Positions 30,790 to 52,458 of a stretch of DNA of 64,000 nucleotides are shown piece after piece. Source of the stretch: Chthonomonadales bacterium (GTDB lineage Bacteria; Armatimonadota; Chthonomonadetes; Chthonomonadales; CAJBBX01). Under the pieces are notes generated by a model. It made no database searches. It was not told where the DNA came from and was given only the letters and a program-made list of their open reading frames with translations. Made by a program: the position numbers and the translations under genes. Position 1 is the stretch's first letter; every line of letters begins with the position of its first letter. The stretch spans positions 1 to 64,000 of the forward strand of contig JADLGO010000053.1 of assembly GCA_020849275.1 (NCBI GenBank), given 5' to 3'.

Positions 30790-33700
30790 TTGAAAAGAGT
30801 GAGACTGCTACACGTCTGCCTTAGCACGCTGGTCTCCCCACTGCTTCTAGTCACTTGCCTCGCCTCTGGTGCTCTCGCTCAGAACGTCGGGCTTCCCATG
30901 GGGGCGCGACAGCCGCGCGGCAAGCCGTTTGTCGACTCCCGCGCTCCCCTTCCCAGGGCCGTCACCCGGAAGGAGATGCGGAGGACCCGACAGGGGGAGA
31001 CCACGCCGCAGACTCTCGATCTGACGCCCAACACCCCGGCCGTCAACGATAGTAGTCCGTTCTGGACCCGGGACGAGCGCTTCATCATCTTCCAGTCGAA
31101 CCGACGTGACCTGCCGGGCACCCAGGCCGGCACGCTCACGCACATCTACCGCATGAGGCCCGACGGCGGCGGCGTCTCGGCCATCACCGGCCCACTGGCG
31201 ACGCCCGCCACCGGCGCGAGCATCTCGCAGACGCAGCCCTCGCTCAGCTCGAGTGGCGCTCTGCTTCTCTACGTCGAGACCGATGCCTCCGGCGGCGTCG
31301 ACATCATCGAGCATAACCTCAACACGAACACCACGCGCTCCCTGGTGAAGAACAACCCGAACTTCCGGTTCGTGGACCTCAACCATCCCGAGTACGCGCC
31401 GTGGCCCGGCGTCAACATCGCGGTCATCTTCGCCGGCCGCGTCCAGGGCTCGCAGGCGTTCAAGCTGTTCGTGGTGGACACGCAGCGCGGCACCGTCACG
31501 TCGGCGTATCCGGACGTAGCAGACTACCTCACGAACGCGGTGGACGACCGCAACCCGACGGTCAGCCCCGAGCCGCCCGTTGCCGCCGGCCAGCAGGTGA
31601 TCGCCTTCGACAGCAACCGCGCCGACCCTGGCGGGACGGGGGTGAAGGGCAACCGCGACGTCTGGGTGATCCCGACGGCGCCGAACATCCCCGCCAAGCA
31701 GGTCACCAGTTTCGGCCTGGCGGCGGTCGACAACGTCGAGCCGGCGTGGAGCACCAACAAGCAGGACCAGAATGGCGGTGGCCAGCAGTTCGTCAACGGC
31801 CAGCAGCTCCTCGCGTTCGCCTCCACCCGCTACGACCCGGACAACGACGGCAACGCGACGGGCCTTAACCCCAACGGCACGACCGACATCTACTGGCTGA
31901 AGGCCGAGGTGGCGCGCGACCCCGACGACCCGGCCAACCGGTTCTACACGGTGACCACGCCGGAGTCTCGGACGAACGCCGCCCTGAAGCTGCCCACCGG
32001 CGACCCGAACCACCTCTACAGCGACCGCCACCCGACGTGGCCGCAGTTCATCTCAACCTACCGGGTTGCCTTCCACTCGAACCGCACCACTTACAACCCG
32101 GTGACGCAAGAGTCCGGGCCGCCCACCGCCAACATAAACGACATCTTCACGTCGACGCTGATCGACCTCAACGCGCCGACACTGGTGCGCTACGACGAGA
32201 CCTCCGGCGAGATCGTGCATGTGGAGCCGCGCCTGGCCTCACCCGGCGCGCCCGTGCGCATCTCCGTGAAGCTGGCGGACTTCGAGACGGGCGTGCGCGA
32301 CGTCTGGGTGCAGATCAAGAACCCCAACAGCAAGTACCAGTCCTCCGACGGCCTGGAGCACAAGGTCTTCCAGTTCGCCAACCTCGCGCTTGACGCCAGC
32401 AACACGGCCCTTCGCGTCCCGATCGAGTACGAGTCGCAGCGCATCTTCATCGGCAGCGACCCGGGCGATGGGCGCGTGAACAGCTATGATGACCCGAAGT
32501 ACCTGGCGAGCGTCGACGACTTCTACGCCTTCACCGGCGGCGCCAACCCGCCTGAGGAAGGCTGGCTGCAGTTGCAGTTCGAGAGTCGCGACGCGGCTAC
32601 GGGCGTCAGCACGTACTCGGCGACGTGGGTGACCGACACGTACCCGAGCGACTACTACGTCGACGTGATCGCCTACGACAACGCGATCGACCCCTTCACC
32701 AGTTCCGTCGCCAACTGGAAGATCTACGACAACGTGTGGGGTTTCACCACCCAGCCCTTCCAGCCCGGCAAGGGGATCCTCTTCGTCAGCGACTACTCCG
32801 CCGGGCAGAAGTTTTTCGGGTCGCGCTTCGGCAGCACGAGCCTGGTGAACGTGACGCACACGTTCTGGGGCTCCGAGAGCTGGATGACGGACATCGACGT
32901 CAACCTGCTCCCGCGTGCCTACATCAGCGGAACGACCGCCGGCACGCTCATCGACGTGCGCAACACGCTCGGCGTGGGCTCCTACGTTGACGTGTTCGCT
33001 TCGGACGGCACCGTGGTCGACGGAGCCCCGCTCGCCGCAACGCAGAAGTACGACCTCTGGCGCATCCTCTGCCGTGGCCCCGTGCCGGATGCGGTGCTGC
33101 AGCAGTACGCTCCGCACGTGGAGCAGCAGCCGGCCGACGTGCTTGCGGGCGAGACCACCCCGCGCGACGTGCTGGTGGTGCCGCGCTGTGTAGTCTGGAG
33201 CGCCCCGTATACGGGCAACGTGTTCACCGGGCCCGGCACCCTGGTCGACCTTCCGGTGCAGAGCCAGCTCGCCTCCTTCGTGCGGGCCGGCGGCCGCCTG
33301 TTGGTCAACGGCCAGGACATCGGCTGGGCGCTCACTCTCGACGGCAGCGCGCCGAACCCGTTCATGACGGAGGTGCTTCGCGCCACCTACCTGCGCGATG
33401 ACGCCGGCTTCACCTTCTTCCGACTGCCCGCCGTCGGCTTCCCGTTCCTGGCATACGGGATCACGGCCGCCTATCAGCTCACCGGCGCGGGGGCGTACAA
33501 CCCGATCTCCCATGACCCGTGGGTAGCCACTCCCGGCAAGACCATCCCGAGCTCGCACCACGTCTACCCTGGTCCGCCGTTTCCGGACGGCATCTCCAAC
33601 TTCATTTCAACGGGCGACAACTGGCTGGTAGGTGGCAGCGACGTTAACACGCCGCGCCTCTACGGCTCCCCCGGCAACCAGTACCCGGACCTGGTGAGCA

Positions 33701-36402
33701 GCCCCACGGGCGTCGTGGCCGATCTGACCTACGGCGGCGGCGGCACCGCGGTGCATCACTATGTCGACGCCACGACGGCCGGGCGCGTCGTCTATGCGCC
33801 AATGGGCCTGGAGGGCTACTTCCCTGCCTTCTTCGCCCCGCCCAACACGCAGAACATCCTGCAGGCGAAGAACCGCCGCACCGAGCTGGTGCATAACGCC
33901 GTGTGCTGGCTGCGCACGGGGACGGTGACGGGAAGCGTCCTCGACCTGCAGGGCGCCGGGCAGCCGCTCGCCAACGTGCTGGTCCGGCTCACCAACCGGC
34001 AGACGGGGGCCGGCGTCCCGATCACCGCTTACACCGCGCTCACCGCCGAGGACGGCACGTTCCTCATCAACGGTGTCGAGCCGGACGACTACGAGATCAG
34101 CGCCTTCAAGGCCGGGTTCATTATCCAGAAGCGCACGGTCGTCACCACCCACGGCGGCTATCGCGACGACATCAGCTTCCGGATGACGGCGGCCGAGCCC
34201 GCGGTCGTCAAGGGCAAGGTGACCCGCACCGACGGCACCACCCCGGTGGTGGGCGCCACGGTGACCCTCACCGACAACCTGGCGCCTCACGAGACCTTCA
34301 CGGCGACGACGGACGCCAACGGCGAGTACGTGATCTCTCGCGTGCCGTCGCAGACGACCTACACCCTGACGGTCACCGCGGACAGCTTCGGCGAGAGCAT
34401 CCCGCCGAGCTACCAGGTGCCCAACCCGAACGACCCCATCGCCACTCAGCGCGACACCGTGGTGCAGCCGGCCAAGACCTACGAGGGCTTCGACTTCAGG
34501 CTCAAGCCCGAGCAGGGATCGGTGACCGGCAAGGTGCTCAAGGCGGCGGACGGCACGCCCATCTCCGGCGCGACTGTCACGGCGACTCAGGGCACCCAGA
34601 AGGTGACGGCCGTCACCAACGACCAGGGCGTCTACACCTTCAGCAAGGACAACACGCCGCCCAACGGCCTGGATCCGGGGGTGTGGTCCGTGGTGGCGAC
34701 GGCGCCCGGCTACAAGCCCAACGACGCCATCACCGTGACGGTGGTCTCCAAGCAGTCCGTGACCGCCGAGGACATCCGCCTGGAGACGACGCCGCCGGGT
34801 CTGGTTTCCGGCCTGGTCACCCGTACGAGCGACGGCGCGCCGATCAAGGGCGTGACCATCGAGCTTCGCGACGCGGCGGGCAACCTGGTGGCGAGCGGCA
34901 AGACGGTCGACCCCGTAACCGACGGCGACGACTACCGCTACAACTACCGCCTGACCGACGTTCCGGCCGGTGTAACGTACACGGTGACCGCCACGCTGGA
35001 GGGCTTCACCGCGAGGCCGGCGTCACGGGAGGCCGCGGTCCAGAGCCAGCAGGAGACCAAGAGCGTCGACTTCCAGCTCGAGCCGCTGCACACGTTCTCG
35101 GGTGCGCTCTCGCTGATCTCGTCGCCATACGACTACGCGCAGAACGTTGCCGACCTGCTCGGGATCCCGTCGGCCGACCGGACCAACGGCTCCTTCCTGT
35201 ATGCGACGTGGGACCTGCGCAAGTATGTGTACTTCCCGCAGCCGCCGGCCAGCACGCTGCGCCTGGGCCGCGGCTACTTCCTCGGCTACAAGAGCAACAT
35301 CGCCCTGAGCAAGCTCGGCACGCTGGCCGACCCGAACCGCCCGTTCGACATCCCGCTCAACGCCGGGTGGAACCTGGTGGGCGATCCGTTCACGTTCGAC
35401 ATTGACTGGACGAAGGTCTCCGTGGTGGACGGCGGCTCGGTCCTCGACTTCGGCCAGGCCGTCGCGGCAGGCGCCATCGGCTCCGCGCTCTACGGCTATG
35501 TGAGCGGCAGCTACGTGCTCGACTATCGCATGTTGCCGTGGCGCGGCTACTGGGTGCGGGCCTACCGCAACGTGACGCTTCGCATCGACCCGGTGAACGA
35601 CGCCTTCGGGCGGGCCGCGCCGGCCGCCAGGAGCCGCGCAGTGCTGCGCGGCGGGGATGGCTGGAGTGTCAACCTTCGCGCCGCGTCCGGCGGCCTGCGC
35701 GACGACGACAGCCACCTTGGTGTCACGGGCCGCGCCGTCGACGGCTTCGACGGCTACAAGGTGGAGAAGCCTCCCGCCTTCGGCGAGCACTACGTCCGGC
35801 TGACCTTCGATCACGACAACTGGGGTGACAAGTCGGGCGGGTACGGCGTGGACGTACGCTCCAGCGCGGCGGGCTCCAAGTCGTGGGAGTTCACCGTGAA
35901 CGCGACCGAGCCCAACGCGGCGGTTACGCTGACATGGCCGGACGCGGGCACCGTGAAGCGGGGCGTGACGCTGACGCTGACCGATCTGGCCACGGGCGCC
36001 GTGCGCAGCCTGCGGACCAACAGCAGCTATACCTGGAGCACGGGCAGTACGCCGGTCGCGCGGCGGTTCCGGGTAGACGCGGCCGAGGCCACGCGCTCCG
36101 CCCTGCGGATAACGAGCCTGGCTTCCCGAAAGATCGGCAAGGCCGCCGGCGTGGGCATCACGTTCAACCTCTCGGCCGCGGCCAACGTGGAGATCCGGGT
36201 GCTGAGCGCCTCCGGAGGCGTCGTTCGGACGCTTGCCGGGCGCTCCACCCGGGCGGCCGGGATCCAGGAAGCTGTGTGGGACCAGAAGAGCGATCGCGGC
36301 ATTGCGCTGCCGGCAGGCTCCTACCTCGTGGAGGTGCGGGCGCAGTCAGCAAGCGGCGCCGAGACGGTCCGCGCGATCACGCCCATCATCGTAACCCGAT
36401 AG
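30790..36402 (+). CDS. Giant secreted protein A: TolB-like propeller, carboxypeptidase-regulatory repeats, shared FlgD-type tail
   Basis: 1870 aa. TTG start at 30790 with TAGGAGGT upstream; GTG 30799 is an alternative. Signal peptide about 1-30 (cut near ALAQ). Residues about 80-460 contain at least four PD40 propeller motifs (RFIIFQSNRRD, QVIAFDSNRADPG, QLLAFASTRYDPD, RVAFHSNRT). A GATase/ThuA-like stretch (FVRAGGRLLVNGQDIGW) is near 840. Four carboxypeptidase-regulatory Ig folds span about 1041-1430 (GSVLDLQGAGQPLANVLVRL and relatives). From about 1435 comes the shared tail: WNLVGDPF module, HLGVTGRAVDGFD/EKPP module, then FlgD-like Ig ending ITPIIVTR. Probably surface-exposed; ligand unknown. 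Confidence 0.85.
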   Translation: MKRVRLLHVCLSTLVSPLLLVTCLASGALAQNVGLPMGARQPRGKPFVDSRAPLPRAVTRKEMRRTRQGETTPQTLDLTPNTPAVNDSSPFWTRDERFIIFQSNRRDLPGTQAGTLTHIYRMRPDGGGVSAITGPLATPATGASISQTQPSLSSSGALLLYVETDASGGVDIIEHNLNTNTTRSLVKNNPNFRFVDLNHPEYAPWPGVNIAVIFAGRVQGSQAFKLFVVDTQRGTVTSAYPDVADYLTNAVDDRNPTVSPEPPVAAGQQVIAFDSNRADPGGTGVKGNRDVWVIPTAPNIPAKQVTSFGLAAVDNVEPAWSTNKQDQNGGGQQFVNGQQLLAFASTRYDPDNDGNATGLNPNGTTDIYWLKAEVARDPDDPANRFYTVTTPESRTNAALKLPTGDPNHLYSDRHPTWPQFISTYRVAFHSNRTTYNPVTQESGPPTANINDIFTSTLIDLNAPTLVRYDETSGEIVHVEPRLASPGAPVRISVKLADFETGVRDVWVQIKNPNSKYQSSDGLEHKVFQFANLALDASNTALRVPIEYESQRIFIGSDPGDGRVNSYDDPKYLASVDDFYAFTGGANPPEEGWLQLQFESRDAATGVSTYSATWVTDTYPSDYYVDVIAYDNAIDPFTSSVANWKIYDNVWGFTTQPFQPGKGILFVSDYSAGQKFFGSRFGSTSLVNVTHTFWGSESWMTDIDVNLLPRAYISGTTAGTLIDVRNTLGVGSYVDVFASDGTVVDGAPLAATQKYDLWRILCRGPVPDAVLQQYAPHVEQQPADVLAGETTPRDVLVVPRCVVWSAPYTGNVFTGPGTLVDLPVQSQLASFVRAGGRLLVNGQDIGWALTLDGSAPNPFMTEVLRATYLRDDAGFTFFRLPAVGFPFLAYGITAAYQLTGAGAYNPISHDPWVATPGKTIPSSHHVYPGPPFPDGISNFISTGDNWLVGGSDVNTPRLYGSPGNQYPDLVSSPTGVVADLTYGGGGTAVHHYVDATTAGRVVYAPMGLEGYFPAFFAPPNTQNILQAKNRRTELVHNAVCWLRTGTVTGSVLDLQGAGQPLANVLVRLTNRQTGAGVPITAYTALTAEDGTFLINGVEPDDYEISAFKAGFIIQKRTVVTTHGGYRDDISFRMTAAEPAVVKGKVTRTDGTTPVVGATVTLTDNLAPHETFTATTDANGEYVISRVPSQTTYTLTVTADSFGESIPPSYQVPNPNDPIATQRDTVVQPAKTYEGFDFRLKPEQGSVTGKVLKAADGTPISGATVTATQGTQKVTAVTNDQGVYTFSKDNTPPNGLDPGVWSVVATAPGYKPNDAITVTVVSKQSVTAEDIRLETTPPGLVSGLVTRTSDGAPIKGVTIELRDAAGNLVASGKTVDPVTDGDDYRYNYRLTDVPAGVTYTVTATLEGFTARPASREAAVQSQQETKSVDFQLEPLHTFSGALSLISSPYDYAQNVADLLGIPSADRTNGSFLYATWDLRKYVYFPQPPASTLRLGRGYFLGYKSNIALSKLGTLADPNRPFDIPLNAGWNLVGDPFTFDIDWTKVSVVDGGSVLDFGQAVAAGAIGSALYGYVSGSYVLDYRMLPWRGYWVRAYRNVTLRIDPVNDAFGRAAPAARSRAVLRGGDGWSVNLRAASGGLRDDDSHLGVTGRAVDGFDGYKVEKPPAFGEHYVRLTFDHDNWGDKSGGYGVDVRSSAAGSKSWEFTVNATEPNAAVTLTWPDAGTVKRGVTLTLTDLATGAVRSLRTNSSYTWSTGSTPVARRFRVDAAEATRSALRITSLASRKIGKAAGVGITFNLSAAANVEIRVLSASGGVVRTLAGRSTRAAGIQEAVWDQKSDRGIALPAGSYLVEVRAQSASGAETVRAITPIIVTR

Positions 36403-36410
36403 GCGGCCGC

Positions 36411-36631: not shown

Positions 36632-38545
36632 GTGAAACGGATCAGGAAAAGCAGGGCTGCCCGGATCCTGAGCTGGGTGTTGACCGTTGTGATGGTCGTT
36701 CCGCTGCTGTGCGACGCCTTCCGCCCGATGGCGGCGCACGCGCAGACGCCCGCCCAGACAGGCACCGTCCAGACCGTCATCGTGATCGACTTCGCCAACC
36801 GGTCTGGCACGCTCGGCGAGAGCCTTGCCCGACGCGCCACGGATGACGTCGCGGTGGCACTGGCGGAATCCGGGCGCTTTGACGTCCTCGGGCGTGAGGA
36901 GGTGGCGCGGCAGGCGGCCGACATGGGCCTGCGTAAGCCCTACGACCGGGTCGCGCTCAGCAAGCTCGCCTCGGCCCTCGGAGCCAGCGCGATCGTGTCC
37001 GGCGAGGTCTCCTACGTGCATGTCGACACCAAGGCGACTCCCAAGGCCGTTACGGCGGGCCTCAAGGTGCGCATCGAGGAGGCGACCGCCGGGGACCTGA
37101 TCGCCGGGGCTGCCCAGATCGGCGAGGCTCGCGCCCGCCCGGGCGGCGGCGACAACGAGGCGCTGGCCGGCGAGGCCGTGGACAACGCGGCCACCCTGGC
37201 CGTGCGACAGATTGTCAACTCCAGCCTCCCTGAGGGAACCGTGATCAGCACGGTCGGCGGGGGAGCGGCCGCCAGCAGGCTCGACGTCCTGATCAACCGC
37301 GGCTCCCGCGACGGCGTGAAGGAAGGCATGGAGATGATCGTGCTCCGCGACAAGCAGCGCGTGGGCAAGATCCAGGTAACCTCCGTCTATCCTGCCGACT
37401 CGCAGGCTCGCGTCGTCGACAATATCCTGGGCATCCGCCCCGAGGACAAGGTCCGCGCGGTCTTCCCGATGCCCGACTTCGCCAAGGACGGCAGCGTCAA
37501 GGCGCCGCGCCGCAACGGCCGCAATAGCATGCGCGGGCTCGGCCAGATCCTCCTCGCGGTCGTCGTGGGCGTCGCCATCGTGGCCGCCGTGGCCGGGGGA
37601 AGCAGCAGCACGGTGACCGGCGTCGTCGCCGAGGCCGACATTCAGAACGCTCAGCCGGTGGTGCGGATCACCTGGCGTGACAACATCTGGGGGGCCAGCA
37701 CCCGCGAGTACCACATCTGGCGTCAACCGGACGCTCCCTACAACTTCCAGGGCACGCCGGTGGCTGCCGTCGCGAGCCAGCGCCAGTACTTCGACCAGCC
37801 GGCGCCGTACTCGTTCTGGGATGGCACGCGCGGCTTCCTTCAGGCGCCGCTCCCCCAGGGAGGCGGCGGGACCGGGTCCACGCAGGAGGCCGAGGTGGTG
37901 ACGCCGGCGGCCGGCATCGTGCCGGGCTTCACCGTCGGGCGCAGCTACAACTACGTGCTCAACGCCGTCATACGCCGACTGCTCGGCACCGCCAACACCG
38001 GCGGAGGCGGTGGCGGTGGCACCGACCAGGCCTTCGAGGATGTGGACACTGGCACCGTACGCTCCGGGCAGGTCACGCCCATCAACCAGCCATTGCTCGG
38101 GCCCAATCCGGCCGACCAGGCGCAGAACGTGAACCTGACCGCGTTCAACCCGACCTGGCTGAGCCGACAGGGCGCGGACCAGTTCGTGGTGGAGGTGTCG
38201 ACCGACCGCGCGTTCATGAACCGCAACCTGATCCTCCAGTTCCCGCTCGTCTTCTCGACGGCGCCCAACGCCGATGGGGTTACCCAGACGCTGCCCTCGC
38301 CGGCGAACCTGACGAGCAGCGAGGTGCTGTTACGCGACCCGGTCTTCGCCAACTTCGTCAACCAGCAGCCCGGCGCCATTCGGCCGACGCTGTTCTGGCG
38401 GGTTGGCGCGCGCAACAGCCAGGACAGCCCGGGCCCGGTGGACTGGCTGACGAAGGATCCGAAGTCCGGCAACCGCGCATTCCGGTACGTGTATTCCCAG
38501 GCACGCAGCTTCACCCCGGCGGACATGCCGCCCCCACCCCCCTAG
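36632..38545 (+). CDS. CsgG-like secreted/anchored protein with poly-Pro C-terminus
   Basis: 637 aa. GTG start at 36632 with AGGGAGG upstream. Signal peptide ends near AHAQTP (about 38). Residues about 45-230 match the CsgG/TolB-N-like fold: VIVIDFANRSGTLGESLARR, FDVLGREEVARQAADMGL, ALGASAIVSGEVSYV. A second beta domain (about 210-290, RGSRDGVKEGMEMIVLRD) precedes a hydrophobic segment (about 305-325) and fibronectin-like beta regions. It ends in five Pro. CsgG itself is the curli export channel; this protein lacks the usual lipobox Cys, so a channel role is only a possibility. Confidence 0.75.
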   Translation: MKRIRKSRAARILSWVLTVVMVVPLLCDAFRPMAAHAQTPAQTGTVQTVIVIDFANRSGTLGESLARRATDDVAVALAESGRFDVLGREEVARQAADMGLRKPYDRVALSKLASALGASAIVSGEVSYVHVDTKATPKAVTAGLKVRIEEATAGDLIAGAAQIGEARARPGGGDNEALAGEAVDNAATLAVRQIVNSSLPEGTVISTVGGGAAASRLDVLINRGSRDGVKEGMEMIVLRDKQRVGKIQVTSVYPADSQARVVDNILGIRPEDKVRAVFPMPDFAKDGSVKAPRRNGRNSMRGLGQILLAVVVGVAIVAAVAGGSSSTVTGVVAEADIQNAQPVVRITWRDNIWGASTREYHIWRQPDAPYNFQGTPVAAVASQRQYFDQPAPYSFWDGTRGFLQAPLPQGGGGTGSTQEAEVVTPAAGIVPGFTVGRSYNYVLNAVIRRLLGTANTGGGGGGGTDQAFEDVDTGTVRSGQVTPINQPLLGPNPADQAQNVNLTAFNPTWLSRQGADQFVVEVSTDRAFMNRNLILQFPLVFSTAPNADGVTQTLPSPANLTSSEVLLRDPVFANFVNQQPGAIRPTLFWRVGARNSQDSPGPVDWLTKDPKSGNRAFRYVYSQARSFTPADMPPPPP

Positions 38546-41600: not shown

Positions 41601-41711
41601 GATGCGGCGGGGCGCTCGGTTCCGGCCGGCACCTACCTGGTGCAGATCCGCGCGCTCGGCTCCGATGGCGAGGTGGTCCGGGCCATTCAGCCGTTCGCGC
41701 TCGTACGCTAG
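38628..41711 (+). CDS. Secreted subtilase (S8) with shared FlgD-type tail (protein B)
   Basis: 1027 aa. Signal peptide about 1-30 (cut near AFAQ). A propeptide-like region (about 38-115, GEVLITVPHGTPLADVQ) precedes the S8 catalytic domain (about 140-445). Catalytic Asp167 is in IIDDAVDIDHPE, His206 in SHGTHVTG and Ser389 in GTSMASPQVAG, so it should be active. An Ig-like linker follows, then the shared tail from about 575: two WNMVGDPFPF-type modules, YIGVSSRSADGFD/VPKPP, and the FlgD-like Ig ending IQPFALVR. Likely processes or degrades surface proteins; may mature the neighbouring tailed proteins (inference). Confidence 0.92.
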   Translation: MKMTQWIRASLRAGLVALVLVAFVSMAAFAQGDRAANRAFVAGEVLITVPHGTPLADVQTAAAAAQATVARSWLAIDFERTTDAYLLRLSRDLATEQGTLDAVQALKARALVRYAAPNYRYFRLQGLPGITPNDPRFREQWDKQLIRMPQAWAVEKGKDNVIVAIIDDAVDIDHPEFKNRYVTGYNGIDQGTDPRPPAANVANMSHGTHVTGIAIATPNNSIGVAGNVWEGAMLMPMRSGADDGTLSSAGVMNCYAELLKRRLAMPDKQFVLNLSLGRAAAADAPDPNNLAPDEQAVMNLAKNGVVVCAGAGNDFENGNPPFTPANLCQISPNIISVAAVGPQGTHASYSTARPYTTIAAPGGDVAQGKQILSTFPVANGSYGELEGTSMASPQVAGAVALLLSVPGVKPEDVKGIVTSTARPVPGATIPSPEYGYGVLDVAAALLKVSVAVTVVEPDGAGGKASQGGLDRQPDPVETLRPTVRIQVSQITPDNLTIKLNESVFTDYVIENIVRETTDDAGGQVPYSYDVVIKDRDFSPGQNRVDVTGTNPGPPERTVSDTRTFIIKPHEILPGRSLISIPYFQDGATPETYFGSDFRLARWVPTDAVYAPYFPGGMTDPRASFAPPGVAPRVDGGAVRPPVGLAYWIDTDSTKPVLTRGQAVSNRTFVVPLKGTAGNRNISWNMVGDPFPFDVPFNAVLVDTPEGRLTIGDAVASNYLLPNIYSYDGASGYTFRTLPDGALRAWAGHWIGVTSKSDIALVVPPAKTTRAASRAGATGAGGTVWTLQLAASTGALNDAHNYIGVSSRSADGFDLADVPKPPMLAPYVSLSLNNESWGGRAGQYARDLRGPGGVHVWSALVNTDQADSDVTVRWSGVGSYPRGVKLTLKDEATGQVYDMRTRSSMTFHTGSDLAPRRLTITARPGTDGVIRISNLTVRSAGGRSAGTTRIAFTLSSDATYDVKVLGADGRPIGTVASRAATAGDVSLVWNGKDAAGRSVPAGTYLVQIRALGSDGEVVRAIQPFALVR

Positions 41712-41763
41712 ACGCACTCGAGGCCGGCAGGAATGTCGGCGTGAGGCGCAGAAGGTAGGCGCG

Positions 41764-41785: not shown

Positions 41786-41943
41786 TCGCCCGCACCGAGC
41801 GCTGACCAGCTGACCCTCATGCCGGCGGCCCTCTGGTCTGCCGCACGGGCCCGCCGCAGGCGAGCTCGCCCTGGCCCTTGTCGCCCCCTGGCGGGGGAGA
41901 CGCCGGCCCCTGACCGCAGGGACCACCAAGGAGGAACCGTTTG

Positions 41944-44715
41944 ATGGGGTGGAAACGAGTACTCAGCTCCGGTTGCAGGGCCGCCGCGGGGGCACTCATC
42001 CTGGCAGCTCTCTCGGGAGCGGCCGCTCGCAGCCAGACCCTTACCTCCATCTCCAACAGCTTCATCACCGCCACGGTCGGCGTCAAGGACCAGCTTAATA
42101 GCGTCAACGTCGCCGGGCGGTTTGGCGTCTTCGAGTCCGGCACCGCCGGGCGCGTGCTGATGCAGTTACCGAGGTCCAACGACCTTGGCCTGTTGGGCAG
42201 CTTCGTCACGCTACGCGTCAACGGTGGCACCACAGAGGACACCGGGGACGGCGATGGCGGGGGCAACGGCGGAGGGACCGGCGGCGGCACGGGCGGCGGA
42301 ACCGGGGGCGGCACGGGAGGCGGCATCGGAGGCGGGCTTGGCCGCGCGGCCGCCGTCAAGGGCTTCGACATGATCTTCGGCGATACGGCGACGACGGGCA
42401 CCGACGTCACCGGCGCGTGGATCCAGGAGCCCGTGGCCATCGACGCCAGCACCGTCGTCGCCCGGTGGCACACCGTGCCCGACCCGGCCGCGACGCCACC
42501 GATCCCCGAGATCGAGGTCGACCTGCGGATGATGCTGATCCACGACCTGGTCGCCTACCAGTTCACGGTCATTAACCGCGACACCACGACGCACCGAATC
42601 GGGCTGCGGTTCGCGCAGGACTACAACGTGCCGGACGGCACGGACGCGCCGATCCTCACTCCGACCGTCCCGCAGATCACCAACGAGATCGAGCTCTTCA
42701 GCACACTCGTTCCGCCATGGTGGCGCGGCGTGCCGGAGAGCGGCACCGGCAGCGTGGGGGCGGCCCTCTACAACGGCCTCTCGCCGCTAGAGCCCGGCGA
42801 GGCCTCGCCGATCCCGAGCAAGCCGGCGCGCCTGGCGTTCGGGCAGACGCCGCGCGTGGTGGTGCCCGTGTGGGACTTCACTCCCGACCCGGGGCTGGGC
42901 CTGACGGCGCTCGGCGCCGACGGTGCCGCGGCGGCCTACTGGGCAGAGACCGAGTACGGTCCTGGCCAGCAGCGCACCATCACCACCTACTTCGGCGCGT
43001 ATGGCGCGAGCTACGACTTCGGCCGGCGCCTGGTGGCCGGGCTGCAGGGGCCGCCGTCGCTGAGCTACGACGCGGGGCAGCCGCAGGGGCAGCAGCTCAC
43101 GCCGAACCCGATGGTCGTCTCCGCGTTCGTGCACAACCTCAACACCATCGCCCTCACGAACGTTCGCGCCGTGCTCTCGCTGCCCGCCGGCTTCGAGCTG
43201 GAGGCCGGCGAATCCGGGACGAAGACCACGCCCGCGGTGGCGGCGAACGGCGAGGCGACGTTCAACTGGAGCGTGGTGCCCAACGGGGAGGCGAGCGGCA
43301 AACTGACCTACTCGGTCACTTTCAGCGCCGACCCCGGGCAGCAGGGCGTCACCGTCACGCGGGACATCGACGTACCAGCCCTGCCGAACCAGACTCTGCC
43401 CGGCGGCCTGCAGATGGTCTCGCTCCCCTACACGTTCGCCAATCCCGAGCCGGCCGCGGCGCTCGGACTCCAGGCGGGGTTCTTCGACCTGGTCCGCTGG
43501 AGCTCGCAGGTGGGCGTCTACCAGGCCGTGCAGTTCATCCAGCCGGGCCAGGGATACTGGCTGCGGCTGGATTCGCAGACGGCCATCGCCCTGAACGACG
43601 CGACGCCCATCACCACCTCCTCGGGCCAGTTCGAGCTGCGGCTTGCTCAGGGATGGAACCAGATCGGCAACCCCTACCTGCTACCGGTCCTCTGGGGCGA
43701 CGTGAAGGTGATCACCTCGGACGTGGGCGATCCAGACTATCTGGTGCCGCTGAGCGTGCAGGCGGCGGCCGCGCCGCAGCGCCAGTGGATCTCGCCGACG
43801 CTGTTCCGCTACGACACGATCGACCAGATGTACAAGTTCGACGAGGGCTTCGGCACCGAGATGCGCCCGTTCGAGGGCTACTGGGTGAAGGCGCTCAAGC
43901 CGAGCATCTCGCTGCTCTTCATGCAGCCCACGGGTCGGGCGGCGCGGACGCGCGCGGCGGACGCGTCGGCACCGGACGGGTGGCGGCTGCGGCTGGTTGC
44001 TACGACGAGCGGCCAGCGCGACGGCTGGAACTTCCTTGGCCTCTCGTCGACGGCGCGGGATGGGTTGGACGCCGCGGACGTCGAGAAGCCGCCGGCGATC
44101 TCCGATCGCGCGTCGATCGCGTTCACCCGGCCGGATGCCGGCGGACGAGCCGCGCTCTTGGCGCGGGACCTGCAGTCGGCGGCTCCCGGGCGTAAGCGTT
44201 GGGACGTGATAGTGACGACGCCGAAGCCGGAGGCGGAGGTCACGGTGACCTGGCCGGAGATCGCCGCGGTGCCGCGCGGGTACGAGCTGTACCTGACGGA
44301 TAACGCGACGGGTCAGCGCTACGCGATGCGCGCCACCAGCCAGCTCCGGCTGAGCATGGGCACGGCCACGAGCCGCGGGCTCACCGTTACCGCCGAGCCA
44401 CGCACGGCGGCGGGCGCCTTCCGCATCACCAACTGGCGCGTGACGCCCTCCCGCTCGCGGGGAAGCGCCACGGTGACCTTCTCCGGCACGCAGAACGCCT
44501 CGTACACGGTGCGCGTCACGGGGGCCGCCGGCCGGCCGATCCGTACGCTGGTGTCGCGGGCCGCCACGGCGGGCGCCACTACCAACCTGACCTGGGACTA
44601 CCGGGACAGCGCGGGGGTGGCGGTCCCGGCGGGCGCCTACAACATCGAGGTTCGGGGAACGACGCCCGACGGTCAGAGCGCGCGGGTCATTATCCCGCAC
44701 ATCCTGACCCGGTAA
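41944..44715 (+). CDS. Secreted protein C with Gly-linker and shared FlgD-type tail
   Basis: 923 aa. ATG 41944 chosen (AAGGAGG nine bases upstream); TTG 41941 is in frame. Signal peptide about 1-30. The N-terminal beta region (about 30-460) is not recognised; it is split by a Gly/Thr linker (GGGTGGG units, about 98-135). It contains a DUF11-like Ig stretch (NLNTIALTNVRAVLSLPAGF, about 395-415). The shared tail begins near 480: WNQIGNPYLLPV-type module, FLGLSSTARDGLD/VEKPP, and a FlgD-like Ig ending IIPHILTR. Likely exported to the surface; function unknown. Confidence 0.8.
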   Translation: MGWKRVLSSGCRAAAGALILAALSGAAARSQTLTSISNSFITATVGVKDQLNSVNVAGRFGVFESGTAGRVLMQLPRSNDLGLLGSFVTLRVNGGTTEDTGDGDGGGNGGGTGGGTGGGTGGGTGGGIGGGLGRAAAVKGFDMIFGDTATTGTDVTGAWIQEPVAIDASTVVARWHTVPDPAATPPIPEIEVDLRMMLIHDLVAYQFTVINRDTTTHRIGLRFAQDYNVPDGTDAPILTPTVPQITNEIELFSTLVPPWWRGVPESGTGSVGAALYNGLSPLEPGEASPIPSKPARLAFGQTPRVVVPVWDFTPDPGLGLTALGADGAAAAYWAETEYGPGQQRTITTYFGAYGASYDFGRRLVAGLQGPPSLSYDAGQPQGQQLTPNPMVVSAFVHNLNTIALTNVRAVLSLPAGFELEAGESGTKTTPAVAANGEATFNWSVVPNGEASGKLTYSVTFSADPGQQGVTVTRDIDVPALPNQTLPGGLQMVSLPYTFANPEPAAALGLQAGFFDLVRWSSQVGVYQAVQFIQPGQGYWLRLDSQTAIALNDATPITTSSGQFELRLAQGWNQIGNPYLLPVLWGDVKVITSDVGDPDYLVPLSVQAAAAPQRQWISPTLFRYDTIDQMYKFDEGFGTEMRPFEGYWVKALKPSISLLFMQPTGRAARTRAADASAPDGWRLRLVATTSGQRDGWNFLGLSSTARDGLDAADVEKPPAISDRASIAFTRPDAGGRAALLARDLQSAAPGRKRWDVIVTTPKPEAEVTVTWPEIAAVPRGYELYLTDNATGQRYAMRATSQLRLSMGTATSRGLTVTAEPRTAAGAFRITNWRVTPSRSRGSATVTFSGTQNASYTVRVTGAAGRPIRTLVSRAATAGATTNLTWDYRDSAGVAVPAGAYNIEVRGTTPDGQSARVIIPHILTR

Positions 44716-44723
44716 GCGCGCGC

Positions 44724-44758: not shown

Positions 44759-44955
44759 CAGGCGCGCCGGGAGCCAATAGAAGAGGACGGTATTCCCCCC
44801 GGGGCGTCGGGCGCCTTGCAGTGACCCGTCGTGTGGCGCCCGGTTGCGGCCCCAGGGCACGAGGTGGAGGATTTGCGCGCCCCCTCAGGCCCGCGACTTT
44901 CAGAAACAGTACAGTCCCCATAGCTCTACAACGTGGGATTGAAGGGGAGAGACGT

Positions 44956-47900
44956 ATGCTACCTCTACGCAGCGCCGTGAGATACTCGCTGGCATTCGTC
45001 TTACTGCTGGCGCTGATCGCATCGCGCGCGCAGGCGGCTCCTACCATCGACGCTCCCGAGGTCTACGCCATGCGGGACCCGGGCGGCGTCGAGTCCGGCA
45101 CGGAGAAGACGGTCTTCGTGTTTCGCGCGATCGTCACACCCTCGGCCAACAACGTCCTTACGGGCCCTCCGTCGGTCGTGATCGGCCCCGTGTTCGTCGA
45201 CAACGAGTTGTTCGGCGGCTGGCTGATCGTCGACATGCAGCCCGACGGGAGCCCGGGCCGACCCCAGAACGCCTACATCGGCTTCGTAACGGGCGCGCAG
45301 ATGAACGCCGCGCGCGGCTATGAGACGAACGGCGTCGGGCGTCCGCGAGAGCACGAGTGGGTGATCGCCGGCCTCGACACCGACGCGAACGATCCGATCG
45401 GCTACGGCCCCGGCACGCCGGGCCTCGTGCACGTCTACCCTTCAACCACGGACCTACAGACCGGTTCGCCGCGGCCCGTGTTCCGCATCCGCCCGGTCGG
45501 GCCGAACGGCCAGGACGACAAAGCGCCAGGCCCCGGCCAGCTCGGCAACGGTCTGCGTGTCGACCCGCAGGACCCGACGGCGCCCAACGACGGGGGCGGC
45601 GCGCACACCTACACATGGCGCGTGCGAGTCAGCAACCTCTACGGCCTGCCGATGGCCTTTTACCGGCCCTACTTTGAATGGAACCGCGGCCAGCAGGGCC
45701 CGGTGGTGCTCACGCTGATCGGGCCGGACAACGCGCACTACTGGTGCCCGATGGAGATCGACGACAGCTTCCATCCGGGCCTGACGGCGAGTGCCTATCC
45801 GGCCGATGGGCCGAACGGACTGGTGCACCCGGCAGGGAGCCAGGTCTGGATCGACGGCGTGGTCGCGCGCTATCGGATGATGCCGACGCAGTACTCAGCA
45901 ACTCCCTTCGGAGGGGACCTGCAGGGCTCTCCCCCTGCCTACACCGCTCCCGACGGCCTTCCCACCGAGTTCGTGGCGCTTGACTACCCCGGCGCCGAGC
46001 CGATCCGTGAGCGGCTGCGCCTCCATGTGTTCGGAAGGCCGCACGGGAACGACTATGCCGCGTTCGCGGCGCTCGATCCCATCCTCAAGTACCTGGGCAC
46101 GCCGTTCTGGACGCCGCCACGCTATCCAACCTACAGCGGCATCCCGAACCGCGACGATCCGCAGCAGCGCGTAGGGCAATGGAAGTACTACTACTCGGCG
46201 AGCGTCGACTTCCGCATCGACATGGGGGGCGACCCGAGTCACAACTTCATCGTGCAGGGCGCGGGGCGAGTCACCGGTCTCGCCGACAACTTCGGGGCGA
46301 ACCTCAGCCTCTACCAGACCTTCTCCGAGTCCGACGATCCGATGGGCTACCCGAGCGGCGACCCGGAGGGGACCGCCTATCGCCACCCCTGGGTGACGCC
46401 GATCGTGGCGGACGGCGGCTGGACGGACGACCTCGCGGCGAACCAGGCGCTCCTCCCCGAGGTGCCCTACGCCGGCACCTCCAACAACGCCCGGCGCTCC
46501 CGCGTCACCACGAAGACCGCCGTGCGCTACCTGTGCCGGGTCGCGAGCCTGCCTCAGCGCTTCACCGGGCAGCCGGTGCTGGTGCGCGTCTTCGTTCCGG
46601 ACGCCAGCGGGGCGCTCCAGCCACACGCCATGCAGCCGCTGCCCATCCCCGGCAACAACGACCACACGAAGGGCGTGATCTACTACTACGACACGGCCTT
46701 CCCGGTCGGCCAGGAGGGCCGCAAGGCGGTCTACTTCGAGGCGGACGATGGCGAGCACAAGGCCATCTGGCCGCGTCGGCCCGACGACGACACCATGGGC
46801 ACAAATCTGCCCACGCGCGGCGAGCCGGTGAACTTCGGCACGGGAACGGTCGGCCGCAACTACGTGATGGAGCCGTGGGTGAACAACCGGCCCACGCTGA
46901 GCAATCCCACCGTCAACCCCTCGTCCGGCGCCGAGAAGCAGGCATACACCTACGAGGTGACCTACTCTGACCGCGACGGCGACGAGCCGCTCGAGGGCTA
47001 CGTGGTGGTGGACGGCGTGGAGTACCGCATGACCCCGGTGGACAATGCCTCCGTGGTCACCGGGCGCCGTTACCGCTTCGTGATCACTCAGCTTGAGGCC
47101 ATCGTCGGTAAGCACACCTACTACTTCAAGTTCCGCGACAACTGGGCGCCCGGAGCCCCCATCCGGCGCGAGTTCGGCGAGTGGGTGAACCTCCCGTCTG
47201 GCGACGATCTTGGCAACCCGTCCGGAGTCATCGAGGGCCCGGTCATCGTCGGCAACACGCCGCCAGAGCTCGTCGAGCCCTACTTCGCCTACAGCCCGGC
47301 CACCCAGGCGCAGACACCCGCCACGCTCTACGACTTCGTGGTGCGCTACCGGGACGGCGACAACGACAAGCCGGCGACCGTGAAGTTCTACATCAGCGCG
47401 GACGGGGGCGTCTCCTACGACAGCGGCCAGGAGTTGGTGCCCGCCGAGGCCGGCACCAACTACGTGAGCGGCGTGCAGTACCACCTGCCCAACCGCATCA
47501 CGCTCCCCGTCGGCAGCAACTACCGGGTGAAGTTCTCGGCCTCCGATGGGAAGGCCGAGACGACCGTCATCCATGTGGGCACGGGCGCCAACGCGGCCAG
47601 CGACGGCTCGGCGCGCGAGCTGAGGCATCTGGCCGGCCGCGACTACGTCGACCCGCAGGGGACGCGCAACTGGCTACCGCAAGGGCTCTACGTCTACGAG
47701 ATGACGACGCCCGATCCCCGGCTGCTCACGCTCGGCACGCAGTACACCCTGGATGCGGCCGCCGGCAAGATCACGCTGATGTTTGACGCGACCGCGCCGA
47801 TCGTCGCGTCGTTCTACTGCCTGGACGCCGCCGGCCCCGTCGTCGGCCCCAACCACCTGCCGCGGCTGACGCCCACCGACCTGGCCGACAGCCCGAACTT

Positions 47901-50900
47901 CAAGACGGTGGCCCCGCTCTCTGGCAGCCCGGAGACCGAGTTCACCTTTACCATCATCTACAGCGACGAGGACAACCAGCCGCCTGTCGACGACAACGGC
48001 AACGAGGGCGTCTACGTCGTCATCGACAACAGCCAGCGTCTGCTGCTGCAGCGCGACCCGGCCGCCCAGCCCCCGCTGGACTACGTGAAGGGCATCGCGT
48101 ACTCCGCCAAGACGACGCTGAGCGTTGGCGAGCACAACTACTTCTTCGAGGCCAACGACCTGCCGCTCGGCGCCACGAACCGCTCCGGCGACAAAGTTGT
48201 GTTCCCGGAGATCACGGCGAGCCCGAACCGCCTGCCGGGTCCGGTGGTCGTGAACCTGGGTACGCTCTCGGAGGCGCCGGACCCGAAGTACATCCTGCCG
48301 TTCCCGAAGGGCGGCAGCACGCAGTCCTACCTGTTCACGGTGCTCTACACGAACACCGACGGCATCGGGCCGAAGAACAACATCGTGGAGTTGCGTGTCC
48401 GCTCCAAGATCACGGGAGAGACCTCCATCCTCGAGATGAAGGCGATCGACCCGATCGGGCCCGACCAGTACAAGGCCGGCGTTCGCTACCAGCTCCAGAT
48501 CGCGGCGCCCAACGCGCCCCTGGCGCCAGGCGACTACGAGATCTCGTTCGGCTTCCATGACCTGCCGGCCTCGGCGCCCGCCGAGCCGCTCGTGCTGGCC
48601 GTCAACGGCCCGCCGGTGCTCAGCAACGGGGCGCTCGTGGCGGACCACGGGACTCCGATCAGCCGCAGCGACAAGCTGACCTTCTCGGTCACCTACACGG
48701 ACATCAACGGCGACCCGCCGGTTGGTCAGGATGGCAAGGCCGCGATCAGGCTGTTCGTCGACGACGTGGAGGTGACCACCGCGACGCTAGCGCCGGATCC
48801 CACCGACGCCGCGCAGTTCCCGCGCTTCCCCGCGGTCACCAGCCAGCAGATTCGCGACGGCCAGGTGTTCACGTGGAAGGTCGCCGTGAAGGACCTGCCG
48901 GGCGGCGGCCTTCCGGGCCAGCACACCTATCAGTTCAGGTCCGCGGACGACTTCGGCGAGGCGTCGAACGACTTCCCGCCGGCCCCCGCGAGCTTCGAGG
49001 TGGTGGGCAGCGTGCCGCCCGAGCTCATTGAGCCCGGCCCGGCCAGCGCGGACACCAACAACGGCACCATCGATGCGAAGGCAGGCGCGGAGAAGCGCGC
49101 GTACCTCTTCAGCGTCATCTACAAGCACCTGCAGGGCATCGAGCCCACGCGCATCGAGTTGGTGCTGGACCCGGGGTCGGCCAACGAGAAGCGGGTCACG
49201 ATGCAGCCGAAGGCCGGCCAGCCCAGTCCGCTGCCCTACAAGACGGGTGTCACCTACCAGTACCTGACGGCGCCCGGCGAACTGAGCCCCGGCCAGCACA
49301 CCTACCGGTTCGAGGCCGCCGACACGCTCGAGTCCGCGGAGCTGCCCAAGGCGCCAGCCACCTATCAGGGCCCTCTGGTCAACCACACGCCGGTGCTTTC
49401 CGCCGGGACGGTGTTCATCCAGGGCAGCCAGGTCGTCCCGTCGGTGGACCAGCTCAACCAGCTCAACCCGCCGATCACCGCGACCGTGCTGGACAAGGTC
49501 ATCTTCCGCGTGACCTATGCCGACGCGGACGCGGCGGCCACGCCGGTCCAGGCCGTCAAGGTGTGGCTCAACGACCAGGCGAACACATCCATCACCCTGC
49601 ACCCGGTGAGCCCGGAACCCCGCGACTACGCGGCAGGCGTCGTCTACGAGAGCGACCCGACGCCGCTGGCCGCGCGAGCCTGGGAGTTCCACTTCACCGG
49701 TGAGGACACGCTCGACACGGGCTTCTTCCCGGCCTCCGGCGACATCGTCGGTCTGGACGTGAAGAACGTGCCCCAACTCCTGGAGCCAACGCCGGGCGAG
49801 GCCGCGACGAACAACGGTACGCTGGACCCGGTGCGCGGCGCGCTCAACGGCCAGTACACGTTCAAGGTGATCTACAAGCACCTGGACGGCACGCAGCCCA
49901 CGAGCATCCGCCTGCTCATCGATCCCGGCCAGTCCGGCCAGCGCAGCATCGACCTGCAGCCCTCCGGGTCCGGCAGCCCGGTCGATGGCGTCGAGTACGC
50001 CTACACGACCCAGCCGGGCGAGATCGCCTCCGGCCAGCACCACTACCGCTTCGAGGCGTCGGACGGCATGACGACGACGTCGCTGCCGGCCGGTGAGGAC
50101 ACCTACACCGGGCCGACGATTAACAACCCGCCGACCCTGTCGGCCATTGAGGTCCAGGTGACGGGCAACGAGGCGGCCTCGACGGTCGATGACAACGCCC
50201 AGATGGCTCCGCCCATCTCGGTGTCGGCGCAGACGACCATGGTCTTCCGCGTGAAGTACGCCGACGCGGACGGCGTGGCGCCGACCCAGGCCGGCCGCGT
50301 GACGGCGGTGGTCGACGACGGCACGGTCGTGCCGCTGCAACCGAAGGCTGGCGACCCGTTGAGCTGGACCGAGGGCGTGGTATACGAGAGCGCCGCGGTT
50401 ACGCTCAGCGCCGGCCAGCGCACGTTCCACATCGAGGTCAGCGACGGCTACGAGGACGTGAGGCTGCCGGACGCGGCCGAGGTCGGCGGTATCACGATCC
50501 GCCGTCTGGCCACGCTCACGGCGCCGGCCGAGGGGACCCTCGCTCCGGCCGTCGGGCCACCGTCCACCGAGTTCGCCTACCGCGTGACCTACAGCCATCC
50601 GGACGGGACGGCGCCGGGCGTGGTCCGCGTGTTCATCGATGGTGTGTCGCACGACATGACGCGGGCGACGAGCAGCACCGACTACACGAACGGCGTGGTG
50701 TACGAGTTCAAGTACCGGTTCGCCGCCGACACGCAGCGGACGCACACCTACCGCTTCGAGGCGACGGACTCGGCGCTGCCCGGCTACACCGCGCAGCTTC
50801 CCACGGGCGGCGGCGCCACGGCCGGGCCGACGGTGAACACGGCGTTCTTCACGACGCCGACCTTCACCCAGCCGGGCGCGCAGACCCCGCCATACCTGGT

Positions 50901-52458
50901 GGGTAAGACCATCACCGTGCAGGGCAGGCTCGACACCAACGCGCCCGTCGCCAACGCAACGGTGAACGTCCAACTCGTAAAGCCCGATGGCAGCGGCGCG
51001 ACGGGGTCAGCCACGCCCTCCGCTGACGGCGGCTTCACCTTCACCTCGGCCGACGAGCTCGATCAGACCGGCGAGTGGAAGGTGCGGCTGACGTGGAACG
51101 GGGCCGCCGGTCAGTACGACCCGACATCGGCCGAGTTCACGTTCAAGGTGACCGGCGTGACGATGCAGCTCACGTCGGGCAAGCTGGACATGATCGCTCT
51201 GCCACTGATCCCGGTGACTCCCGACCTGACCACGACGTTCGGACCCGCCAGGGCGGACCAGACGCCGCTCGCGGTGACGGTCCTCGACCTGATCAAGTGG
51301 ATGCCGCTCGCCGGCACCAACGGCCGCTACGTGTCGCTCAACCGCGACACCAACTTCCCCGGCGCCGCCGCCGGTCAGGCGTACTGGACCAGGCCGACCG
51401 AGAGCGTGGTCCTGGCGCCTCGCGGCAAGCTCTGGGACAAGACGCAGCCCTACTCGATCACGCTGCCCGCCGGTTGGAGCATGATCGGCTCCGTCTACCT
51501 GGAGGACATCAACTGGGGCGCCGCCGAAGTGCGCTTCCAGGGGCAGTCCCTCCCGGTGGCCAGTGCCGGCCAGGTCCTGCGGCCGTTCGCCTGGGGCTAC
51601 AACCCGGCGACGGGCAGCTACGAGGTGGTCCAGCCCGGGCAGGTGCTCAAGTCCGGCCGCGGCTACTGGGTGCGGGCTCTGCAGCCCTGTGAGCTCGTGC
51701 TCCCGCCGCCCGGGCGCACGGCCCAACTGAGCCGGGCATCGGATGTGCGCACCGACGCTCTCCAGATCGTCGCTCGCATCCCGGGCATGATGGACACCGA
51801 CAACTACCTGCCGACCACCGGCGCGACGGCCAGCAGGCTGGCGATGGCCGAGAAGCCGCCGTACCTGGGCGACTTCGTCTCGGTGAGCCTGCTGCCCGCG
51901 GAGTCCCTGCCGGCGGAGAGCCGGGCGGCCGGCGCGACGACGATGGGCTTCGAGGTGACCTCGAACCGGGCGAACACGGACGTGACGTTGCAGTTCCCGA
52001 ACGTGTCCGCACTGAGCCGGCGCTTCGAGATCAGCGTGGTCGACCTGGGCACGAAGACGACCCGCGCGCTGGGGACCTCCTCCAGCTACGTCTACAACAC
52101 CGGCGAGAACGGCGCACCGCGGCGCTTCGCCGTGCTCGTCAAGCCTGTCACGGTGAGCGGCCGGCTCGTGATCACCGGCATGCGGGCGAGCGCCCGCTCC
52201 GCCGGCTCGCTGAGCTTCGCCTACACGCTGTCCGGGTCCGCCACGGTCCGGGCGCAGGTGGTGGGGGTCGGCGGCCGCGTGTTCCGCACGCTCGGGCAGG
52301 GCCGTGCCGCCTCGCAGGGTGTGAACACGCTGCTGTGGGACGGCCGGGACGAGCGCGGCATCGCGGTGCCGGCGGGCGCCTACCTGCTGAAGGTGACCGC
52401 CGCCGACGACCAGGGACGGGCAGCGACCGCTGTGCTGCCGGTCACGCTGGTCCGCTAA
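44956..52458 (+). CDS. Giant secreted repeat protein D with shared FlgD-type tail
   Basis: 2500 aa. Start ATG 44956 (GGGGAGAG upstream, directly before a signal peptide cut near AQAAP); the in-frame reading from 44821 adds an implausible leader. Residues about 25-640 are a beta-rich region of unknown family. Residues about 642-1960 hold about ten degenerate ~120-aa repeats, each with a VxYxDxDG-type strand, a DYxxGVxY turn and GxHxYxFxAxD. A separate Ig-like domain (about 1965-2065) follows. The shared tail runs from about 2070 to the end: WSMIGSVYL module, DNYLPTTG/AEKPP, FlgD-like Ig ending VLPVTLVR. Adhesin-like design; function inferred only. Confidence 0.82.
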   Translation: MLPLRSAVRYSLAFVLLLALIASRAQAAPTIDAPEVYAMRDPGGVESGTEKTVFVFRAIVTPSANNVLTGPPSVVIGPVFVDNELFGGWLIVDMQPDGSPGRPQNAYIGFVTGAQMNAARGYETNGVGRPREHEWVIAGLDTDANDPIGYGPGTPGLVHVYPSTTDLQTGSPRPVFRIRPVGPNGQDDKAPGPGQLGNGLRVDPQDPTAPNDGGGAHTYTWRVRVSNLYGLPMAFYRPYFEWNRGQQGPVVLTLIGPDNAHYWCPMEIDDSFHPGLTASAYPADGPNGLVHPAGSQVWIDGVVARYRMMPTQYSATPFGGDLQGSPPAYTAPDGLPTEFVALDYPGAEPIRERLRLHVFGRPHGNDYAAFAALDPILKYLGTPFWTPPRYPTYSGIPNRDDPQQRVGQWKYYYSASVDFRIDMGGDPSHNFIVQGAGRVTGLADNFGANLSLYQTFSESDDPMGYPSGDPEGTAYRHPWVTPIVADGGWTDDLAANQALLPEVPYAGTSNNARRSRVTTKTAVRYLCRVASLPQRFTGQPVLVRVFVPDASGALQPHAMQPLPIPGNNDHTKGVIYYYDTAFPVGQEGRKAVYFEADDGEHKAIWPRRPDDDTMGTNLPTRGEPVNFGTGTVGRNYVMEPWVNNRPTLSNPTVNPSSGAEKQAYTYEVTYSDRDGDEPLEGYVVVDGVEYRMTPVDNASVVTGRRYRFVITQLEAIVGKHTYYFKFRDNWAPGAPIRREFGEWVNLPSGDDLGNPSGVIEGPVIVGNTPPELVEPYFAYSPATQAQTPATLYDFVVRYRDGDNDKPATVKFYISADGGVSYDSGQELVPAEAGTNYVSGVQYHLPNRITLPVGSNYRVKFSASDGKAETTVIHVGTGANAASDGSARELRHLAGRDYVDPQGTRNWLPQGLYVYEMTTPDPRLLTLGTQYTLDAAAGKITLMFDATAPIVASFYCLDAAGPVVGPNHLPRLTPTDLADSPNFKTVAPLSGSPETEFTFTIIYSDEDNQPPVDDNGNEGVYVVIDNSQRLLLQRDPAAQPPLDYVKGIAYSAKTTLSVGEHNYFFEANDLPLGATNRSGDKVVFPEITASPNRLPGPVVVNLGTLSEAPDPKYILPFPKGGSTQSYLFTVLYTNTDGIGPKNNIVELRVRSKITGETSILEMKAIDPIGPDQYKAGVRYQLQIAAPNAPLAPGDYEISFGFHDLPASAPAEPLVLAVNGPPVLSNGALVADHGTPISRSDKLTFSVTYTDINGDPPVGQDGKAAIRLFVDDVEVTTATLAPDPTDAAQFPRFPAVTSQQIRDGQVFTWKVAVKDLPGGGLPGQHTYQFRSADDFGEASNDFPPAPASFEVVGSVPPELIEPGPASADTNNGTIDAKAGAEKRAYLFSVIYKHLQGIEPTRIELVLDPGSANEKRVTMQPKAGQPSPLPYKTGVTYQYLTAPGELSPGQHTYRFEAADTLESAELPKAPATYQGPLVNHTPVLSAGTVFIQGSQVVPSVDQLNQLNPPITATVLDKVIFRVTYADADAAATPVQAVKVWLNDQANTSITLHPVSPEPRDYAAGVVYESDPTPLAARAWEFHFTGEDTLDTGFFPASGDIVGLDVKNVPQLLEPTPGEAATNNGTLDPVRGALNGQYTFKVIYKHLDGTQPTSIRLLIDPGQSGQRSIDLQPSGSGSPVDGVEYAYTTQPGEIASGQHHYRFEASDGMTTTSLPAGEDTYTGPTINNPPTLSAIEVQVTGNEAASTVDDNAQMAPPISVSAQTTMVFRVKYADADGVAPTQAGRVTAVVDDGTVVPLQPKAGDPLSWTEGVVYESAAVTLSAGQRTFHIEVSDGYEDVRLPDAAEVGGITIRRLATLTAPAEGTLAPAVGPPSTEFAYRVTYSHPDGTAPGVVRVFIDGVSHDMTRATSSTDYTNGVVYEFKYRFAADTQRTHTYRFEATDSALPGYTAQLPTGGGATAGPTVNTAFFTTPTFTQPGAQTPPYLVGKTITVQGRLDTNAPVANATVNVQLVKPDGSGATGSATPSADGGFTFTSADELDQTGEWKVRLTWNGAAGQYDPTSAEFTFKVTGVTMQLTSGKLDMIALPLIPVTPDLTTTFGPARADQTPLAVTVLDLIKWMPLAGTNGRYVSLNRDTNFPGAAAGQAYWTRPTESVVLAPRGKLWDKTQPYSITLPAGWSMIGSVYLEDINWGAAEVRFQGQSLPVASAGQVLRPFAWGYNPATGSYEVVQPGQVLKSGRGYWVRALQPCELVLPPPGRTAQLSRASDVRTDALQIVARIPGMMDTDNYLPTTGATASRLAMAEKPPYLGDFVSVSLLPAESLPAESRAAGATTMGFEVTSNRANTDVTLQFPNVSALSRRFEISVVDLGTKTTRALGTSSSYVYNTGENGAPRRFAVLVKPVTVSGRLVITGMRASARSAGSLSFAYTLSGSATVRAQVVGVGGRVFRTLGQGRAASQGVNTLLWDGRDERGIAVPAGAYLLKVTAADDQGRAATAVLPVTLVR
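46882..50838 (+). repeat. About ten ~120-aa coding repeats in protein D
   Basis: Units begin near PxLxxG/xVxPxxG, continue through a charged YxDxDG strand and an xYxxGVxY turn, and end at HxYxFxAxDxxxxxxLP. Successive starts fall at about residues 642, 772, 890-970, and then every 110-135 aa to 1851. Nucleotide identity is low, so the repeats are old at the protein level. Confidence 0.7.

Follow-up and report, generated by a model that had tools for sequence, protein, structure and literature searches.

Four large exported proteins encoded side by side in a Chthonomonadales genome (Armatimonadota) raise the question of why proteins with unrelated N-termini should end in one and the same C-terminal tail. 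The window is a stretch of 64,000 nucleotides of this genome, and the genes of the locus all lie on its forward strand. Translation showed that the four proteins (P0001 to P0004) are open frames with signal-peptide-like N-termini. A signal-peptide heuristic was positive for 94 of 110 tail proteins but also for 74 of 101 controls, and does not discriminate between them. Tail protein 1 (30790..36402, 1870 amino acids) consists of a signal peptide, a TolB/PD40-like region, three to four carboxypeptidase-regulatory domains and the tail, as read from its translation and Pfam. Tail protein 2 (38628..41711, 1027 amino acids) is a subtilase of family S8 (Pfam Peptidase_S8, E 1.5e-42) followed by the tail, and a motif check found its HGTH and GTSMASP motifs intact. 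Tail protein 3 (41944..44715, about 923 amino acids) has a signal peptide and an unassigned N-terminal region with a weak Pfam match to NEW3; its reading frame opens at 41941, with an ATG at 41944. Tail protein 4 (44956..52458, about 2500 amino acids) carries long beta-rich repeats ahead of the tail. Its open reading frame spans 44821-52458, and the probable start at 44956 was chosen by the signal peptide MLPLRSAVRYSLAFVLLLALIASRAQAA. The non-tail parts of the four proteins fell into four separate clusters (BLAST E<1e-8), and that of a further tail protein, encoded on contig C63 of the same genome, formed a fifth at the same threshold. Judged by this clustering, at least five unrelated cargo families carry one tail type.

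The tails occupy 35095..36399 (435 residues), 40341..41708 (456 residues), 43396..44712 (439 residues) and 51169..52455 (429 residues) in proteins 1 to 4, as delimited by alignment and by profile searches of the genome. They align end-to-end, the other three being 30-36% identical to that of protein 1, and the four-way alignment holds about 50 invariant columns with a mean column identity of 52%. The alignment indicates that the four tails form one homologous module family, whose shared ending reflects common descent and conservation and not four independent coincidences. The initial annotation had described four large exported proteins with unrelated N-termini and one C-terminal tail, which the cargo clusters and the end-to-end alignment bear out, and the final eight residues that it gave (ITPIIVTR, IQPFALVR, IIPHILTR and VLPVTLVR) were confirmed in the translations. 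Of the features that it ascribed to all four, two need correction for protein 4, in which the WN module deviates (WSMIGSV) and the GVSSRSADGFD-like text is missing except for EKPP.

The sole domain that Pfam recognised in the tails is FlgD_ig, which lies at their C-terminal end (E 2.5e-7 to 9.5e-10). This match, the AlphaFold model of the tail of protein 2 (pLDDT 88.6) and the conserved ending describe a terminal Ig-like beta-sandwich with a conserved last strand and a basic end. The pattern of a terminal Arg with Pro at -6 proved to be phylum-wide for the Arg, which is the last residue in 99 of 108 dissimilar representatives (92%); the Pro is present in most of them (67 of 108). With an identity of only about 30% between the tails, the terminal Arg still ranks 35th in conservation among 410 occupied columns. 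An Arg-rich cleavage linker was considered and rejected, since the flexible linker that precedes the final two domains shows no enrichment of Arg (8.0% vs 7.0%).

The profile search that had been suggested for the tail found exactly five copies in this 4.8-Mb genome, four at this locus and the fifth on contig C63, all of them C-terminal. The position is strict beyond this genome: in the fetched loci the tail was C-terminal in 166 of 166 non-redundant complete open reading frames and internal in none. Profile searches detected the tail in 60 of 61 Armatimonadota genomes, at 1 to 21 copies each. Close homologs belong to Armatimonadota according to the named genome records (Chthonomonadales, Fimbriimonadales and unclassified members). 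Weaker homologs, most of them spanning nearly the whole tail, occur in WOR-3, Salinibacter, Marinimicrobia, KSB1, Caldithrix, Eisenbacteria and Latescibacterota.

These weaker homologs connect the tail with type IX secretion, to whose C-terminal domains (CTDs) it had been likened in the initial annotation; the homology supports that likeness. The homologous tails of FCB-type phyla end in a QNYPNPFN...RKMVLIK domain, and the curated type IX type A sorting domain TIGR04183 matches 17 of 18 of them. An hhalign comparison of the window's Ig domain with the terminal domain of these tails gave E 7e-13. As in type A CTDs (TIGR04183/PF18962; Bacteroidota and the FCB group), an Ig-like domain with a conserved last strand and a basic final residue stands at the C-terminus of unrelated exported cargo, and the cargo proteins of the FCB group have homologous upstream modules of about 330 residues. 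The tails of this genome differ from type A CTDs in matching none of the curated CTD models. PF18962 (Por_Secre_tail) was absent from the genome, and TIGR04183 matched only one of 27 Armatimonadota tails (E 0.0018). Moreover, the last strand of the CTD has a Lys where the Armatimonadota tails mostly have Pro. Type B CTDs, which work with PorP/SprF, are similar in that cargo genes cluster with a cognate outer-membrane barrel and conservation reaches beyond the last 100 residues, but they belong to another domain family and their barrels to another barrel family than those found here.

In profile comparisons, flagellar FlgD is no worse a match to the terminal domain than the type IX CTDs are. 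Because the PorU CTD model matches 13 of 27 Armatimonadota tails (best 1.5e-8) and FlgD matches all 27, the Ig domain alone cannot decide between FlgD and CTD ancestry. A fold search with the whole tail gave weak multi-domain matches, with PorU in eighth place (E 8e-5), and was not decisive. The tails of FCB surface proteins are favoured as kin because the upstream modules are common to both and FlgD is without them. The tail's terminal Ig shares the FlgD_ig family with the hook-capping protein FlgD, but the tail proteins are giant, exported and encoded outside a flagellar operon, and they lack the FlgD N-terminal domain, so that the Ig part alone matches.

The genes around the tails provide a candidate partner. 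The locus had been delimited as 30790-52458; the four tail proteins do lie there, but the operon runs on to 55414. Its order is tail 1, a CsgG/LpoB-like gene, tail 2 (the subtilase), tail 3, tail 4, a second CsgG-like gene and an outer-membrane barrel. The same gene order recurs across Armatimonadota classes, many groups being without protein 4, and the tail-encoding gene cluster is ancient within the phylum. A scan for promoters and terminators gave no useful signal. The CsgG/LpoB-like exported protein (36632..38545, 637 amino acids) is a conserved second gene with same-position homologs in dozens of loci, and matches LpoB alone, and that weakly (E 0.007). The second CsgG-like exported protein (52527..53336, 269 amino acids), which also has same-position homologs, ends in a C-terminal hydrophobic stretch and matches Pfam CsgG at E 0.0016, its 18.2 bits falling below the curated cut-off of 20.8. 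Downstream of the barrel, on the reverse strand (55469-57295), the window encodes a 608-residue protein that, to judge from its sequence text, may unite a zinc ribbon with a beta-carbonic-anhydrase-like stretch (containing GHERCAA), which would be an unusual combination.

The barrel (53429..55414, 661 amino acids) has a signal peptide, an invasin/intimin-type Ig domain (Pfam Big_1), an LptA/LptD-like taco and a large barrel. Its profile matched invasin (1.2e-17), LptD (7omm, 5.6e-6) and also intimin Ig domains in the PDB. The AlphaFold model (pLDDT 81.8) retrieved LptD in all of the top 12 Foldseek matches (E 6e-14), ushers coming after LptD. The profile and the fold thus agree on an N-terminal taco followed by a large barrel, as in LptD; the difference from LptD lies in the extra N-terminal invasin-type Ig and in the tie to the tail operon. 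This protein is not simply the genome's only LptD-like protein, as the genome also encodes LptF/G and another protein, about 604 amino acids long, with a weak likeness to LptD. Two-partner and usher-type secretion likewise encode an exported protein beside its own barrel, but the operon is without a recognised POTRA domain or chaperone-usher proteins. About 55 of the 61 genomes gave a long or full-length match to the barrel. Counting the listed tails, barrel and tail lie within 6 kb on one contig in 34 genomes, and without exception the tail gene is then upstream and on the barrel's strand; most of the remaining genomes have fragmented contigs or unlisted tails, and in one (G056) the closest listed tail is 13 kb from the barrel. 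This linkage makes the barrel the best candidate for a partner of the tails. Invasin-type Big_1 repeats also occur by the dozen in a 6946-codon open frame of a relative (G039:C82:92499-108254), on a contig that encodes a tail protein as well.

The search for type IX genes that the initial annotation had called for did not recover the canonical set. Neither SprA/Sov (TIGR04189) nor GldL (TIGR03513) scored above cut-off in any of the 61 genomes, SprA/Sov giving only local matches of about 90 residues, and neither a motor, for which GldL stood in the search, nor a sortase was identified. The type IX pathway differs in this respect from the locus studied here, where SprA, GldL and a CTD-bearing PorU were not found and an LptD-like barrel adjoins the tails instead. 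A C25 peptidase as sortase was rejected, since no more than 16 of 61 genomes encode a member of the family and the one C25 protein of this genome (L173:2175-5012 on contig C17, 945 amino acids, gingipain family) has no tail. The tail-bearing subtilase was also considered as a PorU-like sortase; many of its orthologs are without HGTH/GTSxxxP, so it cannot be a general processing enzyme. In three of these orthologs (L059, L066 and L070) both HGTH and GTSxxxP are absent and the enzymes look inactive.

A type IX component with a likely counterpart in some Armatimonadota lineages is PorV. An initial family-level search gave only weak matches, and neither it nor a refined profile found a PorV-like gene in this genome. 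The refined profile gave nine strong hits in 9 of 61 genomes; six of these nine proteins had been used to build it, which by itself makes their scores high but has no bearing on their adjacency to the barrel. Eight of the nine are encoded no more than 3 kb from the barrel gene, in several families, and the PorV-like family matches the PorV of the solved SprA-PorV complex (E 1.6e-9). Examples of PorV-family outer-membrane proteins near the LptD-like barrel gene were seen at L136-L140 and L142, again in several Armatimonadota families. The dedicated machine proposed earlier is made plausible by the conserved barrel downstream and by this PorV-family neighbour in some lineages, but the canonical type IX genes that were searched for and a sortase were not found. 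Membership in the type IX secretion system is not established, and the tail system may still work like one.

In type IX secretion the signal sits within the last 22 residues of the CTD (PMC4804311), the loss of the final residues stops export, the terminal motif touches PorV (PMC4804311, PMC11285876, PMC10202324) and PorV carries cargo via the CTD (PMC10202324). Because the signal of type IX CTDs is carried by those residues (PMC4804311), the conserved ending of the Armatimonadota tail is where a recognition site would be expected. We put the chances at about even that the tail of about 430 residues acts as a type-IX-like C-terminal sorting or anchoring module, handled by a machine that is reduced or of another kind, with the LptD-like barrel as its likely partner. 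Cargo would enter the periplasm through Sec, as the signal peptides suggest. The folded tail would then be read at the outer membrane, chiefly through the last strand of the terminal FlgD-like Ig and the C-terminal Arg, and the cargo would be handed over to the cell surface or retained there. The likeliest partner in recognition or translocation would be the barrel that closes the operon; the pair of CsgG-like periplasmic proteins may assist it, as may the PorV-family barrel in those lineages that have one. We infer export, recognition by the barrel and the order of these steps; the homology of the tails with each other and with CTD tails, their strict C-terminal position, the conserved terminus and the phylum-wide operon with its barrel are what can be read from the DNA. 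The barrel's fold is that of LptD, whose known cargo is LPS and not protein, which counts against a role in protein transport.

The main rival takes the tail for a docking or assembly module: the large proteins would be subunits of a surface complex or an S-layer-like coat, exported by another route, and the tails would bind the barrel or each other afterwards. The fixed gene order, in which three to four tail proteins are conserved together with the barrel and both CsgG-like genes, fits such a complex, as do the small number of tails in this genome and the invasin-type Ig of the barrel. However, tails also occur outside the operon (contig C63 here), some relatives have as many as 21 of them in one genome, conservation of the extreme C-terminus is not required of docking domains, and the homologs outside the phylum are export signals of type IX secretion. 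We regard docking as rather unlikely, while noting that it and the export-signal reading predict identical genomics. We consider it clearly improbable that the tail amounts to a FlgD-like Ig of the usual sort with beta modules, duplicated within a surface-protein operon and devoid of a sorting role. FlgD does provide the best curated matches, four of the five copies do sit in one operon, and folding could by itself account for a last strand that keeps its ending; but such duplication sits poorly with unrelated N-terminal parts, the lack of internal copies and so conserved a terminal Arg.

The least probable of the readings is a genuine type IX system whose machinery is too diverged for the profiles, with SprA-domain barrels near CsaB/DUF5693-like genes as the translocon. 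SprA-model matches were present in 44 of 61 genomes, reaching 75 bits in one protein. In this genome and in relatives they mark predicted barrels of about 870-1200 amino acids with one or two SprA-like domains (L044:7529-10648 on C46 and L045:4226-7522 on C65; L046-L049 in relatives). The genes beside the L044, L047 and L048 barrels we take to be a CsaB-type pyruvyl transferase and a DUF5693-like membrane protein. In the four relatives L046-L049 a tail gene is found within two genes of the barrel, which would suit a translocon, as would the PorV family of some lineages. Against this, the matches cover only a repeated domain of about 90 residues of the 2319-position model, a profile of these barrels found no match in the PDB, the SprA structure included, GldL is absent, and in this genome the barrels and the tails are on different contigs. 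The similarity to SprA is real but local; an identification as SprA was rejected and the barrels are kept as a rival only. They may be translocons or polysaccharide-related.

Returning to the sorting or anchoring module, reviews restrict type IX CTDs to Bacteroidota or the FCB group (PMC10202324, PMC8754138), and we did not find a description of type IX-like sorting in Armatimonadota in the open-licence literature. The undescribed system that the initial annotation saw here is possible, but it is safer to describe it as a variant of type IX-type sorting. We can put forward only tentatively that Armatimonadota possess an undescribed, phylum-wide outer-membrane export or anchoring pathway, made of a type IX-derived tail and an LptD-like invasin-Ig barrel, with or without a PorV partner, and operating without the motor and translocon. 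A homologous tail with its own operon in a distant and barely studied phylum, without motor or translocon, would bear on the origin of type IX sorting and on its minimal machine. If true, the pathway would represent a relative of type IX secretion that is either minimal or ancestral, a testable role would fall to a new type of LptD-like barrel, and the tail would become a predictor of the surface proteins of Armatimonadota.
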